Below are positions 427 through 4,819 of a DNA stretch of 5,206 nt, piece after piece. The translations under genes were made by a program, and so were the position numbers. The stretch lies in NCBI GenBank assembly GCA_900299205.1, contig OMIW01000155.1, positions 1 through 5,206 of the forward strand, given 5' to 3'. The stretch is from Pseudomonadota bacterium (GTDB lineage Bacteria > Bdellovibrionota_C > UBA2361 > OMIW01). Each line of letters starts with the position of its first letter. The stretch's first letter is position 1. The notes under the pieces are model-generated. The model worked only from the letters and a program-made list of their open reading frames with translations, had not been told where the DNA came from and ran no database searches.

Positions 427-1164
427 TCACCGCTCATCCAGCAACGCCAAAGAAAACGGCGCACCCCCTCCCACCGCGTCGAGGGCCGCAACCGTCGCGA
501 CAAGCCCATCGACTACGATCAACCCAGGCGCCTGGATCGCCACTGTCTTTGTTCCAGCAACAGTCACTGCGACATCATACGTTCCCGCAGGCACTGTCAG
601 ATAATCTGAGATCGCCTTAAATGGCACATTTGAGAGCACCGGTGCCGCTGAAGAGATACCATTTCCGGGAGCAGTGACATACACATCAACCGACGGTGCA
701 CTCGCTGCCGAGTGGAGAACTCGCACTTTTGCGAAGCCCGCCTCGGGGTGGGACCGGTCGGCGGTCAAGACAAGCGGAGTAATATTTGCGACCTTATCCG
801 CTGCTACGATGAGGTAGTCAGTGTTGTCCGCGAGTTCGAGAGTAGCATCAATCGCCGTGGTATCGGTTCCGGCGACATTTACCTGAACCCGCGATTTTTT
901 CGCTTCTACCGGAAGGAAATCGGAAGCTGCTGTATACGGAACGTTTTCGAGCACCCTGCCCCCATCTATCAGGACATCGACCGCAGGGGCATCAGGAGAT
1001 GCGTGAAACACCCGGACACGCGCCTCGGAGCTATTCCCTCCCCCACATCCAACCGATCCTGCGACCAGCCCTCCTATCGCCATGGCGGTGATGACCGAAC
1101 GACTGAGAATGTGGCTAGCTCGCACTCCCGATGCCCGACTACCAACTAATGAACAATTTTTCAT
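427..1164 (-). CDS. DUF4397-domain lipoprotein with two tandem domain repeats
   Basis: The 245-residue product has a positively charged N-terminus, a hydrophobic segment (about residues 23-36) and a lipobox-like SVGC with the lipidated cysteine at 40, followed by GGG. This points to a lipid-anchored envelope protein; Ser at -3 is less usual than Leu. After the linker come two copies of the DUF4397 motif: VRVFHASPDAPAVDV (from 50) and VRVLHSAASAPSVDV (from 147). Each is followed by NVP[YF]xAxSD[FY]L and then a xVxVNVAGT or VAVTVAGT strand with TxAI. Known DUF4397 proteins are secreted or surface beta-sandwich proteins with no settled function, so none is assigned here. The start is supported by GGAGGT four bases upstream and a strong promoter about 35 bases further up. 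The gene is divergent from the DUF6502 gene and convergent with the Rpn-like gene. Confidence 0.93.
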   Translation of the reverse strand: MKNCSLVGSRASGVRASHILSRSVITAMAIGGLVAGSVGCGGGNSSEARVRVFHASPDAPAVDVLIDGGRVLENVPYTAASDFLPVEAKKSRVQVNVAGTDTTAIDATLELADNTDYLIVAADKVANITPLVLTADRSHPEAGFAKVRVLHSAASAPSVDVYVTAPGNGISSAAPVLSNVPFKAISDYLTVPAGTYDVAVTVAGTKTVAIQAPGLIVVDGLVATVAALDAVGGGAPFSLALLDER

Positions 1165-1174: not shown

Positions 1175-1206
1175 GAATGAGTATTTGCTGTTACTTTCTA
1201 ACACCC

Positions 1207-1235
1207 ATTATCCATTCCTGCTCGTCTCTCGTCAA
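1207..1235 (-). promoter_or_regulatory. Sigma-70-type promoter of the DUF4397 lipoprotein gene
   Basis: On the minus strand, TTGACG (1235-1230, 5 of 6 consensus) and GATAAT (1212-1207, 5 of 6) are separated by exactly 17 bases. Transcription would begin near 1200-1199, leaving a leader of about 35 bases that contains the GGAGGT site. The position and match make it a good candidate for constitutive or high-level expression unless it is repressed. Confidence 0.75.
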
Positions 1236-1248
1236 CAATTACTGTTAA
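1232..1248. promoter_or_regulatory. Imperfect palindrome between the two divergent -35 boxes, possible operator
   Basis: TCAACA (1232-1237), five bases (ATTAC), then TGTTAA (1243-1248) form an inverted repeat with five of six pairs. It sits between the -35 boxes and overlaps part of the minus-strand one, where a bound protein could affect both promoters. Short AT-rich palindromes arise easily by chance, so the regulatory role is inferred only from position. Confidence 0.3.
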
Positions 1249-1250
1249 AT

Positions 1251-1279
1251 TTGACATCAATTTTTTTATTCCATATAAT
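1251..1279 (+). promoter_or_regulatory. Perfect-consensus sigma-70 promoter of the DUF6502 gene
   Basis: TTGACA (1251-1256) and TATAAT (1274-1279) are both exact consensus hexamers with the ideal 17-base spacer, which includes a run of seven T (1261-1267). The expected transcription start is around 1286, only about three bases before the ATG at 1289, so the message should be leaderless or nearly so. The -35 box is 15 bases from that of the divergent promoter, so polymerase binding upstream of the two start sites should overlap. Confidence 0.85.
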
Positions 1280-1288
1280 AAAGAGGTT

Positions 1289-2149
1289 ATGAGGAATAAC
1301 CACTTACCCACCCTTATTACCAACGCGATACTGCGTCCACTCGTACGGCTTTGCCTCGCGCGCGGAGTACGCATTCAAGAGCTTGAGGCCCTCCTGAAAG
1401 CAGTTCTCGTCGCCGAGGCCCGCACCGCCATCGAGGCGGCTCAGAGCGAGGTTAGTGTCAGTAAGATCAGCGTGATAACAGGCATCAATCGGACAGAGGT
1501 TGCGCGATTGGTCTCGGGGGATGGACCTTCTCAGGAAAAGCACGACGTTCTCAACCGAGTGATAGGATTGTGGTCGCACGGCCGAGCGTATGGCAGTCCT
1601 GATGCCCCCCCCCGTCCTCTCACCTACCAAGGACTCGGGAGCGAATTTGCGGCGCTGGTTGCGACGGTGAGTAAGGAAGTAAGCCCTTATCCCGTCCTCT
1701 TTGAGCTCGAACGAATTGGGGCTATTCGCTACGATGGTGACCGCGCTATTCTTCAGGTCGTTGAGTACACTCCGCACGGTGACGTTGAACACGGGGTGCA
1801 AGTGTTGAGCGATGACATCGAGGATCTGGCGACTGCCGTTGAGCAGAATTTGACCTCGTGCAACGAAACCCCCTCGGTGCATCTCAGAACATCTTACGAC
1901 AATATCGATCCCGCAGAGCTGCCCCAGATTCGTCGCTGGCTGCTCGAAAAGGGGGCGGCATTTCACCGCGAAGTGCGGAGCTATCTCTCCCTTTTTGACC
2001 GCGATATTAACCCATCACTGCCGCGCGGTGACGGGCGCGCAAGAGTAGTCGTATCTCTTTTTTCCCTCGGCGCGAAAATCGAAGCGCCAAAAGAATTGAA
2101 GCCCAAAAAACGAGGAAGAAAACCATGCGTCCCTGCCTCCGCCGATTAA
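1289..2149 (+). CDS. DUF6502 family protein, probable DNA-binding regulator
   Basis: The 286-residue product matches the DUF6502 pattern as I know it. It has an N-terminal ILRPLVRLCLARGVRIQELE segment (14-33), a helix-turn-helix-like stretch VSKISVITGINRTEVARLV (57-75), a middle part with LNRVIGLW, PRPL and SEFAALV (88-123), then a VLFELERIGAI helix (136-146) and a mixed C-terminal domain. The extreme C-terminus carries a basic KPKKRGRKP tail (271-279) that resembles an AT-hook. The family has no established function to my knowledge; a DNA-binding role is inferred from the helix-turn-helix and basic tail. The ATG is the only in-frame start before the conserved N-terminal helix. GAGG at 1283-1286 is only two bases from it and would be mostly untranscribed if the consensus promoter is used. 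Codons 106-108 contain a run of nine C (1605-1613). The downstream lipoprotein gene overlaps by 25 bases, so the two form an operon. Confidence 0.87.
   Translation: MRNNHLPTLITNAILRPLVRLCLARGVRIQELEALLKAVLVAEARTAIEAAQSEVSVSKISVITGINRTEVARLVSGDGPSQEKHDVLNRVIGLWSHGRAYGSPDAPPRPLTYQGLGSEFAALVATVSKEVSPYPVLFELERIGAIRYDGDRAILQVVEYTPHGDVEHGVQVLSDDIEDLATAVEQNLTSCNETPSVHLRTSYDNIDPAELPQIRRWLLEKGAAFHREVRSYLSLFDRDINPSLPRGDGRARVVVSLFSLGAKIEAPKELKPKKRGRKPCVPASAD
1605..1613 (+). repeat. Homopolymer tract of nine C inside the DUF6502 gene
   Basis: Nine consecutive C residues encode part of Ala106-Pro107-Pro108 just before the conserved PRPL segment. A gain or loss of one base would truncate the protein and could also disturb the coupled lipoprotein gene. 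The frame is intact here. Such a tract can be a slippage site or simply reflect proline codons. Confidence 0.8.
2112..2118 (+). promoter_or_regulatory. Ribosome binding site of the second lipoprotein gene, inside the DUF6502 coding sequence
   Basis: GAGGAAG is followed, after a normal gap, by the ATG at 2125; AGGA ends eight bases before it. The same bases encode the Arg-Gly-Arg-Lys tail of the DUF6502 protein. It decides the start at 2125 and suggests translational coupling. Confidence 0.7.
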
Positions 2150-2916
2150 TTCGATCGCTCAACCTGACTTATCGGCGCAACCTCTTCCCTCGTGCAGTTA
2201 TCGCCGGAGCTCTGTCAGCCATGGCCTCCATCTCGATCGGGTGCGGTGGTGGCACGACGGGAACCTCCCCCATCGATGGCTTCCACATGGTCGGCACTGC
2301 ACGCTCGACAATCGGCTCGCCCCTTCCGAATATTGAAATGGCGGTCCGCTCTGGGAGCGACAGTGCACCGGTTGTCGTCGCTCGTACCGATCAGCAGGGC
2401 GCCTTCTTAATGCGAATACCCTCTACGGTTTCAACACTGTCGGTATCACTCGGCAACCAACAAACGCCTCCGTTTACACGGACGCTCATCGGTTCGAGTA
2501 TTCTATCAACCGAGCTGCAAGCGACACCGAGCGGTGCGGTCGCGCTCGTAAACAGCTACGAAGTTCAGGTTGACGCTGCGCAGCTATGTGCCGAATTGCG
2601 ACTTCAAGGGAACGAACTGATCCGTGACCGAGAGCTCACCCCAAACGCCTCGTGCATCGTTCCATTTCTTCTGAACTCAACCCAAGGCTCCGTAGCCTCC
2701 CTGCCCAGTGCACGATACCGCGCCACGATAACAAGCCCGGCCTCCGAGCGCTGCACCGCTGCCACTCTCGGGTCACAACCAGCACGGCCAGATACCGATG
2801 GAAAATTGAGGGTCGACATTGCACCCGTCATAAACGCGGGATGTCGATCATTTTCAGTGGTGGTATCGCACGACGACACTCGCCAGCCGGGAGCCTCGTT
2901 CGGGGTGCTGGGTTGA
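2125..2916 (+). CDS. Putative lipoprotein with a carboxypeptidase-regulatory-like (Ig-fold) domain
   Basis: The 263-residue product begins with an Arg-rich n-region, a hydrophobic segment (about 23-38) and SIGC with the lipid-accepting cysteine at 40, followed by GGG. The layout closely matches the DUF4397 protein upstream (cysteine also at 40, Ser at -3). Residues about 56-100 (GTARSTIGSPLPNIEMAV, then TDQQGAFLMRIP) fit the beta-sandwich CarboxypepD_reg-type pattern: G-x-V-x-x-x-x-G-x-P-L then T-D-x-x-G-x-F. The rest is Ser/Thr-rich with no recognised family and has four cysteines (155, 177, 210, 240) that could form two disulfides in the periplasm. No catalytic motif is visible. The start is chosen for its ribosome binding site and because the next ATG (2221) would destroy the signal sequence. 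It is the second gene of an operon with DUF6502. Function is unknown; an envelope role is inferred. Confidence 0.82.
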   Translation: MRPCLRRLIRSLNLTYRRNLFPRAVIAGALSAMASISIGCGGGTTGTSPIDGFHMVGTARSTIGSPLPNIEMAVRSGSDSAPVVVARTDQQGAFLMRIPSTVSTLSVSLGNQQTPPFTRTLIGSSILSTELQATPSGAVALVNSYEVQVDAAQLCAELRLQGNELIRDRELTPNASCIVPFLLNSTQGSVASLPSARYRATITSPASERCTAATLGSQPARPDTDGKLRVDIAPVINAGCRSFSVVVSHDDTRQPGASFGVLG

Positions 2917-3100: not shown

Positions 3101-4819
3101 CTACTTTTCGGTCAGCATAAAAATACCATCCCAGGTATTTTCCTCCGAAAGCTTTCTCAGTTCGGGAATACGAGCAATCATCGTGCGCGATGGTCCGTCG
3201 CTTGGCGCAATCTCAAGCGCGCGTCCAAACCACTTAATTGCTGCCTCCCACTCACCAGAACGGTAATACCTCAAGCCTTCGGCGTAACTACTGCACAGCT
3301 GTGCGTGTGTAGGAGACAATTCCCCACTCAGGGCGAGTAATTCATAAATAGTGACCGACTCTGTCTTCCCCTTCACTGCGATGGAATCTATCTCTCGCAG
3401 TTCAAATTGCCCCTCAAGTCGCCGAGCAGTTTCTTCGGTCAACAGAATCCGAGTGCCGTAGAGCCGATTGACCGATTCAAGTCGGGCAGCGAGATTGACT
3501 GTATCGCCGATGACCGTGTAGTTCATAGAGCTCTCTGAGCCGAGGTTGCCGACAACAACATCGCCCGATGCAATCCCAATCCGAAGATCGAGCTTCGGCG
3601 CATCCTTTCGCAATCCCGTTATTTCGGGGATTGCCGCACACAATTCATTAAGCGCGGCGAGCTGCGCAAGGCAGGCCTTGCACGCCAGAATTGGATGTTC
3701 ATCTTCATCGACGAATGGCGGACCATAATAGGCCATCACAGCATCTCCGATAAATTTATCAACCACTCCGCGTTGCGATTGAATAGCCTGAGACTGGAGG
3801 CCAAAGTGCCGATTAAGGACATGTATCATCAGCGAGGGCGTTAATCTTTCCGAGAGTCCGGTGAAACCAACGAGGTCGGCGAATACCACACTCATCACGC
3901 GCCGGGTCCCCCCGGTCCGACTCGCATCTGGCTGACCCAATACATACTCAACCACCCTTGGGTCTACGTATTTTGCAAAGACGTGCTTCATTTGGTCCTT
4001 CGACTGAAGCTCCCTCACAAAATGATTGAATGCTTCCGTTAATATACCGACCTCGTCCGCGCTCTGAACGGGAACTTGAATCGCGAGATTGCCCTGTCGG
4101 ACAGCTTCCAGACTCTTCACGAGTAGGCGTAATGGTCGGGTCAATCTCTGCGTAATGAACGATGCGAAAATAAGTCCAACAAGTGCTCCCAAGCCGGTGA
4201 TAAAAAACATCCATTTTTCCATGGTCGCGTGCCTGTGGTGGACCTCCGCAGCTGAGCGCGTTGCAAGAGCTGCTGCATAACCATCCAGCTGATCCCGACT
4301 ATCGCGAATTTCGTTCAGCTGATCGGTAAAAAGGTTTAATAGCTCATTCGCCCGATTGTGATCACCTGAGGCTTGTATGGCCAAAATTTCCCGTTGCCGC
4401 TGGCCTTGCGTCGCATAGGCACTTTTCAATCGCCTCAATACCAACCCGATCTCTACGACTTCAGGGCGGGTATTATCCGGCTCTGAGTATGAATCAACGA
4501 TTCGTTGGGCGACCGCTAGCTCCTCGGAGATTCGGGAAGTGAATATATCGAAATTCCGTGACGCTTCGCCGACGACGACCTGATTTGGTGCATCTGCATT
4601 GAGCGCTCCGAACCAGCGCTCAAAAGCCAATCTGAGCCGCAGGCCGGCCTCTGATATCCTCTGTGCTGATTGATTAAGAGGGAGATCGGATTCTACCAGA
4701 CGACTCACCACCCGAAGCGTGCGGTCGGCCTCAAAACGAAGAAATACTGCTATTGCGATGGTGAGGGTAAGGAGAAATACAGCAAGGGTGAATATCTTGC
4801 CCGCTATCGTCTGTTTCAT
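3101..4819 (-). CDS. Membrane-bound class III adenylate cyclase with HAMP domain and TPR-like tail
   Basis: The 572-residue inner-membrane protein converts ATP to cyclic AMP. Transmembrane helix 1 spans about 9-28. A helical periplasmic sensor region (about 29-202) looks like a four-helix-bundle type. Transmembrane helix 2 spans about 203-223 and leads into HAMP (to about 275; RPL at 228-230, DEVG at 255-258), then the linker FAKYVDPRVVEYVL. The cyclase domain (about 305-495) keeps all key residues: metal-binding Asp315 (VVFADLVGFT) and Asp359 (DKFIGDAVMAYYG), substrate-selecting Lys355 and Thr435, and transition-state Asn442 and Arg446 (VNLAARLE). Lys with Thr fits a class IIIb adenylate rather than guanylate cyclase. 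The tail has one TPR-like repeat (about 511-540) and ends WDGIFMLTEK, a common ending for such cyclases. No alternative start exists before an upstream in-frame stop (4856-4858). No clear Shine-Dalgarno or promoter was found. Confidence 0.95.
   Translation of the reverse strand: MKQTIAGKIFTLAVFLLTLTIAIAVFLRFEADRTLRVVSRLVESDLPLNQSAQRISEAGLRLRLAFERWFGALNADAPNQVVVGEASRNFDIFTSRISEELAVAQRIVDSYSEPDNTRPEVVEIGLVLRRLKSAYATQGQRQREILAIQASGDHNRANELLNLFTDQLNEIRDSRDQLDGYAAALATRSAAEVHHRHATMEKWMFFITGLGALVGLIFASFITQRLTRPLRLLVKSLEAVRQGNLAIQVPVQSADEVGILTEAFNHFVRELQSKDQMKHVFAKYVDPRVVEYVLGQPDASRTGGTRRVMSVVFADLVGFTGLSERLTPSLMIHVLNRHFGLQSQAIQSQRGVVDKFIGDAVMAYYGPPFVDEDEHPILACKACLAQLAALNELCAAIPEITGLRKDAPKLDLRIGIASGDVVVGNLGSESSMNYTVIGDTVNLAARLESVNRLYGTRILLTEETARRLEGQFELREIDSIAVKGKTESVTIYELLALSGELSPTHAQLCSSYAEGLRYYRSGEWEAAIKWFGRALEIAPSDGPSRTMIARIPELRKLSEENTWDGIFMLTEK

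Follow-up and report, generated by a model that had tools for sequence, protein, structure and literature searches.

What does a perfect sigma-70 promoter do when it stands directly in front of the start codon of a regulator-like gene? This question is raised by the DUF6502 gene in the window (the whole stretch of 5,206 nucleotides that was analysed), which is one contig of the 2.45 Mb assembly used for the genome-wide promoter scan. The initial annotation of this DNA proposed a nearly leaderless DUF6502 mRNA and offered two readings of the arrangement, namely high transcription with atypical translation initiation or tight repression at the promoter. The features on which the answer depends are collected in Table 1.

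Table 1. Promoters, genes, and operator-like sites around the DUF6502 gene, numbered by position in the window.
Feature	Position	Strand	Details
Divergent DUF4397 protein gene	427–1164	-	PF14344, 132.1 bits; Shine-Dalgarno (SD) sequence GGAGG at 1170–1174, -10.8 kcal/mol
Operator-like site O1	1188–1204		17-bp dyad CTGY-N9-RCAG, CTGTTACTTTCTAACAC; over the predicted DUF4397 start point
Divergent promoter	1207–1235	-	TTGACG-17-GATAAT; TTGAC -35 in all 7 orthologous loci
Operator-like site O2	1242–1258		Imperfect dyad in the window; over the DUF6502 -35
-35 hexamer of the DUF6502 promoter	1251–1256	+	TTGACA, exact consensus
-10 hexamer of the DUF6502 promoter	1274–1279	+	TATAAT, exact consensus; spacer of 17 nt (1257–1273)
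GAGG, SD-like	1283–1286	+	Mostly ahead of the predicted +1 and spaced 2 nt from the ATG; from duplex energies
Predicted DUF6502 transcription start	1284–1289	+	Inferred from -10 geometry
DUF6502 gene	1289–2149	+	286 aa; predicted autoregulatory DNA-binding protein; PF20112, 90.2 bits against the curated cut-off of 27
Predicted lipoprotein gene	2125–2916	+	GCGGGTTGTS motif; overlaps the DUF6502 end; SD GAGGA at 2112–2116

The DUF6502 promoter and start codon

The DUF6502 promoter agrees with the sigma-70 consensus (TTGACA, 16–18 nt, TATAAT) at 12/12 positions, confirming the original observation that both hexamers and the 17-base spacer are exact. A promoter of this quality did not arise by chance in any of 200 dinucleotide shuffles of the window, even when spacers of 15–19 nt were allowed. 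Furthermore, it is the sole instance of TTGACA-N16-18-TATAAT in the assembly, and the same assembly-wide scan with a reversed-pattern control returned 0 matches. The perfect hexamers are not kept across the orthologous loci; L033, for example, has TTGACG-17-TACACT, and the other orthologues are weaker. The candidate plus-strand -10 is weak in L021, L029, L030, and L031, where it scores between -0.9 and 2.6 bits.

The position of the start codon has been examined by comparison with orthologues. The ATG at 1289 is the first ATG, GTG, or TTG after an in-frame stop 90 nt upstream. Six orthologues (51–57% identity) align at the same N-terminus as the window protein, and four of them have in-frame stops 6, 9, 12, and 12 nt before the orthologous start (L033, L021, L067, and L031, respectively), which indicates that ATG 1289 is the right start codon. 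It is the sole plausible start of the gene, in line with the earlier statement that no other start exists before the conserved N-terminal helix. The gap between TATAAT and this ATG is 9 nt (AAAGAGGTT). A usual 6-nt discriminator puts the predicted +1 at G1286 and gives the leader GUU, while a +1 at A1289 would make the mRNA fully leaderless; from promoter geometry only, the predicted leader is 0–5 nt long.

The initial annotation suggested that the promoter-to-ATG spacing be compared in related loci. The short geometry is kept in the six orthologues, as the candidate -10 ends 9–14 nt before the start in all 7 orthologous loci. Such spacing is uncommon in the genome: in a 118-kb contig sample, for which the figures are approximate due to home-made gene calling, a strong -10 ending 5–13 nt before the start was found for 2/76 genes, DUF6502 among them. 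The other strong -10s in this sample lie mostly 18–29 or 39–47 nt upstream of starts. Leaderless expression as a general habit of the genome was rejected on the basis of the 2/76 count in this sample. Among DUF6502 genes at large, short -10-to-start spacing is mildly enriched relative to neighbouring genes (11/87 vs 3/115, p = 0.006) with no clear positional peak, so leaderless geometry was also rejected as a rule for all members of the family.

The translation signals set the DUF6502 gene apart from its neighbours. The best SD pairing at DUF6502 starts is between -0.1 and -3.7 kcal/mol in 6/7 orthologous loci. The pairing in the window reaches -6.5 kcal/mol, and it comes from a GAGG with almost no spacing to the ATG; with the GAGG at 1283–1286 and the ATG at 1289–1291, the initial annotation was accurate in placing this element mostly upstream of the predicted +1 and two bases from the start codon. 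A usable SD is consequently lacking, being absent in 6/7 loci and spaced by 2 nt in the window. Because the SD of the lipoprotein gene pairs at -5.9 to -8.5 kcal/mol in 6/6 loci scored and that of the DUF4397 gene at -5.6 to -10.8 kcal/mol in the four loci scored, the missing SD is a conserved property particular to DUF6502.

The presence of GAGG, and its pairing energy in the window, would also fit an mRNA that is not leaderless, in which transcription starts further upstream and GAGG functions as a poorly spaced SD. This is improbable, however, as GAGG stands just 2 nt from the ATG, the orthologues are without a well-placed SD, and a scan of the window upstream of the gene revealed no other plus-strand promoter-like site. 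A near-leaderless DUF6502 mRNA without an SD is instead the well-supported prediction, based on the promoter geometry, the spacing in the orthologues, and the finding of no properly placed SD.

The divergent control region and neighbouring genes

Three elements were absent from the initial annotation: the divergent DUF4397 promoter, the paired operator-like sites, and the downstream lipoprotein gene with its normal SD. The lipoprotein-like gene follows DUF6502 in the window and in five orthologous loci, and the two genes overlap in five loci (the window and four others), such that the lipoprotein SD sits inside the end of the DUF6502 gene. This gene has no Pfam match. It is probably the second gene of a DUF6502 operon, for which co-transcription is predicted. 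On the other side of the DUF6502 promoter, a minus-strand promoter lies between O1 and O2 (TTGAC in 7/7 loci, followed after 17–18 nt by a -10-like hexamer that is weak in L021). The divergent gene read from this promoter is DUF4397 in the window.

Conserved dyads lie over both promoters, with O1 and O2 present in 7/7 loci and O2 imperfect in three. The left half of O2, AATTACTGTTAAAT (1237–1250), is strongly conserved in the orthologues as AATTRCTGTwAAAT. Its right half matches well in four loci but is degenerate in the other three (the window, L021, and L033), in which it overlaps the -35. The O1–O2 distance is 54 bp in 6/7 loci (window included) and 55 bp in one, a fixed spacing that may be due in part to the intervening promoter, and O2 lies 47–52 nt from the DUF6502 start in the orthologous loci. 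In the seven upstream regions of 150 nt, the strict motif CTGY-N9-RCAG was counted 9 times, compared to 0.04 times in shuffles (maximum of 2 in 2000 rounds). Across the genome, O1 is the sole place where the extended dyad is found with at most 2 mismatches, and a search for further O-like sites elsewhere in the genome gave 3-mismatch matches at control level. Taken together, these comparisons suggest that the DUF6502 promoter makes up half of a divergent control region and shares it with the DUF4397 gene.

The position of the conserved left half of O2, immediately before the -35, is that of UP elements, and the conserved block takes in both -35 boxes. The conservation could therefore have been read differently, with an A/T-rich UP element or simply two -35 boxes in place of an operator, and a constitutive consensus promoter that makes much leaderless DUF6502 mRNA. 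This explanation is unlikely. It is difficult to reconcile with the O1 dyad, which has the CTG motif too and lies elsewhere, on the start point predicted for the divergent promoter, or with the fixed distance between O1 and O2, and a further point against it comes from the family-wide comparison described in the next section.

The identity of the protein that would recognize the dyads has also been considered. The LexA/SOS box of E. coli is CTGT-N8-ACAG, and the similarity of its half-sites to those of O1 and O2 would be expected if the two dyads were sites of another regulator, such as LexA. The chance of this is slight, given that the spacing is N9 rather than N8, that the fetched loci holding the genome's recA and lexA have no CTGY-N8/9-RCAG, and that O1, as the only extended dyad of its kind in the genome, adjoins the DUF6502 gene. 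Control by LexA was rejected on the absence of the motif from both of these loci. The reading in which DUF6502 itself would bind O1 and O2 is retained below.

Two further coding regions were noted in the window. The minus strand at 3101–4819 encodes a membrane class III nucleotide cyclase that combines HAMP, cyclase, and TPR-like parts. Positions 1–254 hold the end of an open reading frame that contains repeats of Glu, Gly, Lys, and Arg (EKGREEG) and matches Yae1_N below threshold; EKGREEG-like tails occur in Rpn/transposase-like nucleases. No Rfam match to a structured RNA or riboswitch was found in the window.

DUF6502 proteins and their upstream palindromes

The window protein belongs to the Pfam family DUF6502, as its score is well above the curated cut-off (Table 1). 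The AlphaFold2 model of this protein (mean pLDDT 87.8, pTM 0.70) contains a predicted helix-turn-helix (HTH) at residues 57–76, in which residue 69 is located in the second helix, and a winged-helix-like part near residues 83–155. Structural matches of the model include TetR HTH domains, HetR, and winged-helix domains, with weak to middling Z values. The sequence matches of DUF6502 to HTH families are weak, the best being HTH_29 (E = 0.0056). No TetR profile was matched by the window protein in Pfam, and none is present in the list of 25 families that 77 DUF6502 proteins match at E up to 1. Membership in the TetR family was therefore rejected, the resemblance being a local structural one of residues 29–81 only.

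Relatives of the window protein were sought by several routes. With this protein alone as the query, no close relatives were found in named genomes, while a search with the orthologue alignment found the six relatives, titled uncultured Deltaproteobacteria or Proteobacteria, and when the class search was widened, the same set of genomes came back. A PDB sequence search with the family profile gave chance-level matches only, and no paper naming DUF6502 was found in the open-access literature searched. In some relatives DUF6502 is greatly expanded, with 31, 19, and 17 copies per genome (G033, G019, and G036, respectively) and diverse upstream palindromes.

Many DUF6502 genes have a palindrome close to the start. 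Across 137 DUF6502 loci, the predicted recognition-helix residue 69 tracks the class of this palindrome, with Arg accompanying TGTG-N7-CACA and Lys accompanying GGGA-TCCC. In the first 90 loci, TGTG-N7-YRCH is found with R69 in 18/38 loci vs 3/52 for other residues, and GGGA-TCCC is found with K69 in 4/22 vs 0/68. The hypothesis was recorded before 47 further loci were fetched. It was borne out in these held-out loci, where the association of R69 is modest (5/14 vs 2/33, p = 0.018 with the strict pattern; 7/14 vs 6/33, p = 0.033 with the loose pattern), and K69 is found with its class in 4/11 vs 0/36 (p = 0.0019).

Residue 69 is also the best of 1102 column-residue tests over the whole protein for both classes (R/TGTG, p = 2.2e-6; K/GGGA, p = 7.3e-6). 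The association over all loci persists when they are grouped into 102 clusters at 55% identity (p = 1.2e-5 and 2.2e-4), which is the level at which the link was assessed; clustering at 45% identity merges nearly all loci. Proteins of the GGGA class are mutually 26–46% identical, with the exception of one 93%-identical pair. Additionally, the second DUF6502 gene of the genome (L003, on another contig) encodes K69 and is closely preceded by the palindrome TGGGAAAAAATCCCA, and so fits the K/GGGA class. Upstream of L068, which has K69, and L072, the palindromes are hybrids that pair a TGTGA half with a TCCCA half; they are possibly intermediates in operator specificity.

As residue 69 tracks the palindrome class, DUF6502 proteins are probably autoregulatory DNA-binding proteins, and the simplest explanation of the pattern would be that they bind their own upstream palindromes. 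The link is shown for the R and K classes, and the class of the window (T/S/V69, CTGY-N9-RCAG) is drawn from its orthologues only. The family-wide association points to recognition by the protein, which is a third argument against a UP element at O2. On balance, we lean slightly towards viewing DUF6502 as a much-duplicated, self-regulating DNA-binding family (up to 31 copies per genome), in which many members have a private promoter palindrome and residue 69 largely determines its class. To this, the branch represented by the window would add near-leaderless expression without an SD, driven by a shared divergent promoter.

Proposed regulation and comparison with known systems

From the sequence we infer the start point, the binding of DUF6502, the sign of the regulation, the weak translation, and the co-transcription of the lipoprotein gene, and together they suggest a mechanism that we consider likely: a strong, autorepressed promoter coupled to an SD-less regulator mRNA, with DUF6502 binding O1 and O2 in a divergent, autoregulated region. 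First, DUF6502 would repress its own gene by binding O2, which covers the -35 of the consensus promoter there; by binding O1, over the DUF4397 start point, it would probably repress the transcription of DUF4397 as well. Once the operators are empty, the consensus promoter would fire at once to give strong transcription. The resulting mRNA would begin 0–5 nt before the AUG and carry no usable SD, such that DUF6502 would be translated without a leader and probably weakly. Finally, the downstream lipoprotein, with its normal SD, could be made in larger amounts. The sign of the regulation at DUF4397 could be the opposite of that given here, as O2 lies just upstream of the DUF4397 -35 and a protein bound there could activate.

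Of the two readings offered initially, tight repression fits best because O2, a conserved operator-like site, extends over the -35 and because the comparative evidence is for an autoregulatory DUF6502. The other reading, with a high output of DUF6502, is less likely because leaderless regulator genes are reported to be poorly translated (PMC3017554). An isolated perfect promoter thus leads to a testable function for DUF6502 and, for many of its members at once, to predictions of the operator and of the residue that determines specificity. The locus would be one more case in the small set of regulators with a leaderless mRNA of their own, in which strong transcription and weak translation may combine. 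Leaderless regulators are a known kind, and the new part would be DUF6502 as a family of autoregulatory DNA-binding proteins in which one residue follows the class of the operator.

Tn1721 tetR and lambda cI lie at compact divergent control regions that contain several operators. Similar to the proposal for DUF6502, these genes encode self-regulating repressors, and passages of PMC3017554 and PMC3293720 cite both as having leaderless mRNAs. In contrast to the window, their protein families are unrelated to DUF6502, and their operators have other sequences and spacing. Mapping in Salmonella, where leaderless was taken as a start 0–6 nt before the AUG, identified 33 genes of this type, 6 of them regulators (PMC3293720). 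CvkR, the repressor of a type V-K CAST, is likewise made from a leaderless mRNA beside its target gene and has a dyad binding motif, and its start codon was corrected by alignment of homologues (PMC9938897). CvkR differs in being a MerR-type regulator in a mobile element, and its start point and binding site were found experimentally (PMC9938897), whereas those of DUF6502 are predicted from sequence.

The acuR-acuI-dddL operon of Rhodobacter sphaeroides, in which the leaderless regulator gene is transcribed like the downstream genes but translated far less (PMC3017554), also matches the proposed mechanism. Its first gene encodes an autorepressor with an inverted-repeat operator overlapping the promoter, the role predicted here for DUF6502 (PMC3017554). 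The acuR mRNA starts at the regulator AUG, the regulator has no SD, and the downstream genes are better translated, all of which is predicted for the window; the arrangement recurs in other bacteria (PMC3017554). In contrast to DUF6502, AcuR is a TetR-family protein with a known co-inducer. Moreover, the acuR model has no divergent partner, whereas the control region in the window is shared with the divergent DUF4397 gene.
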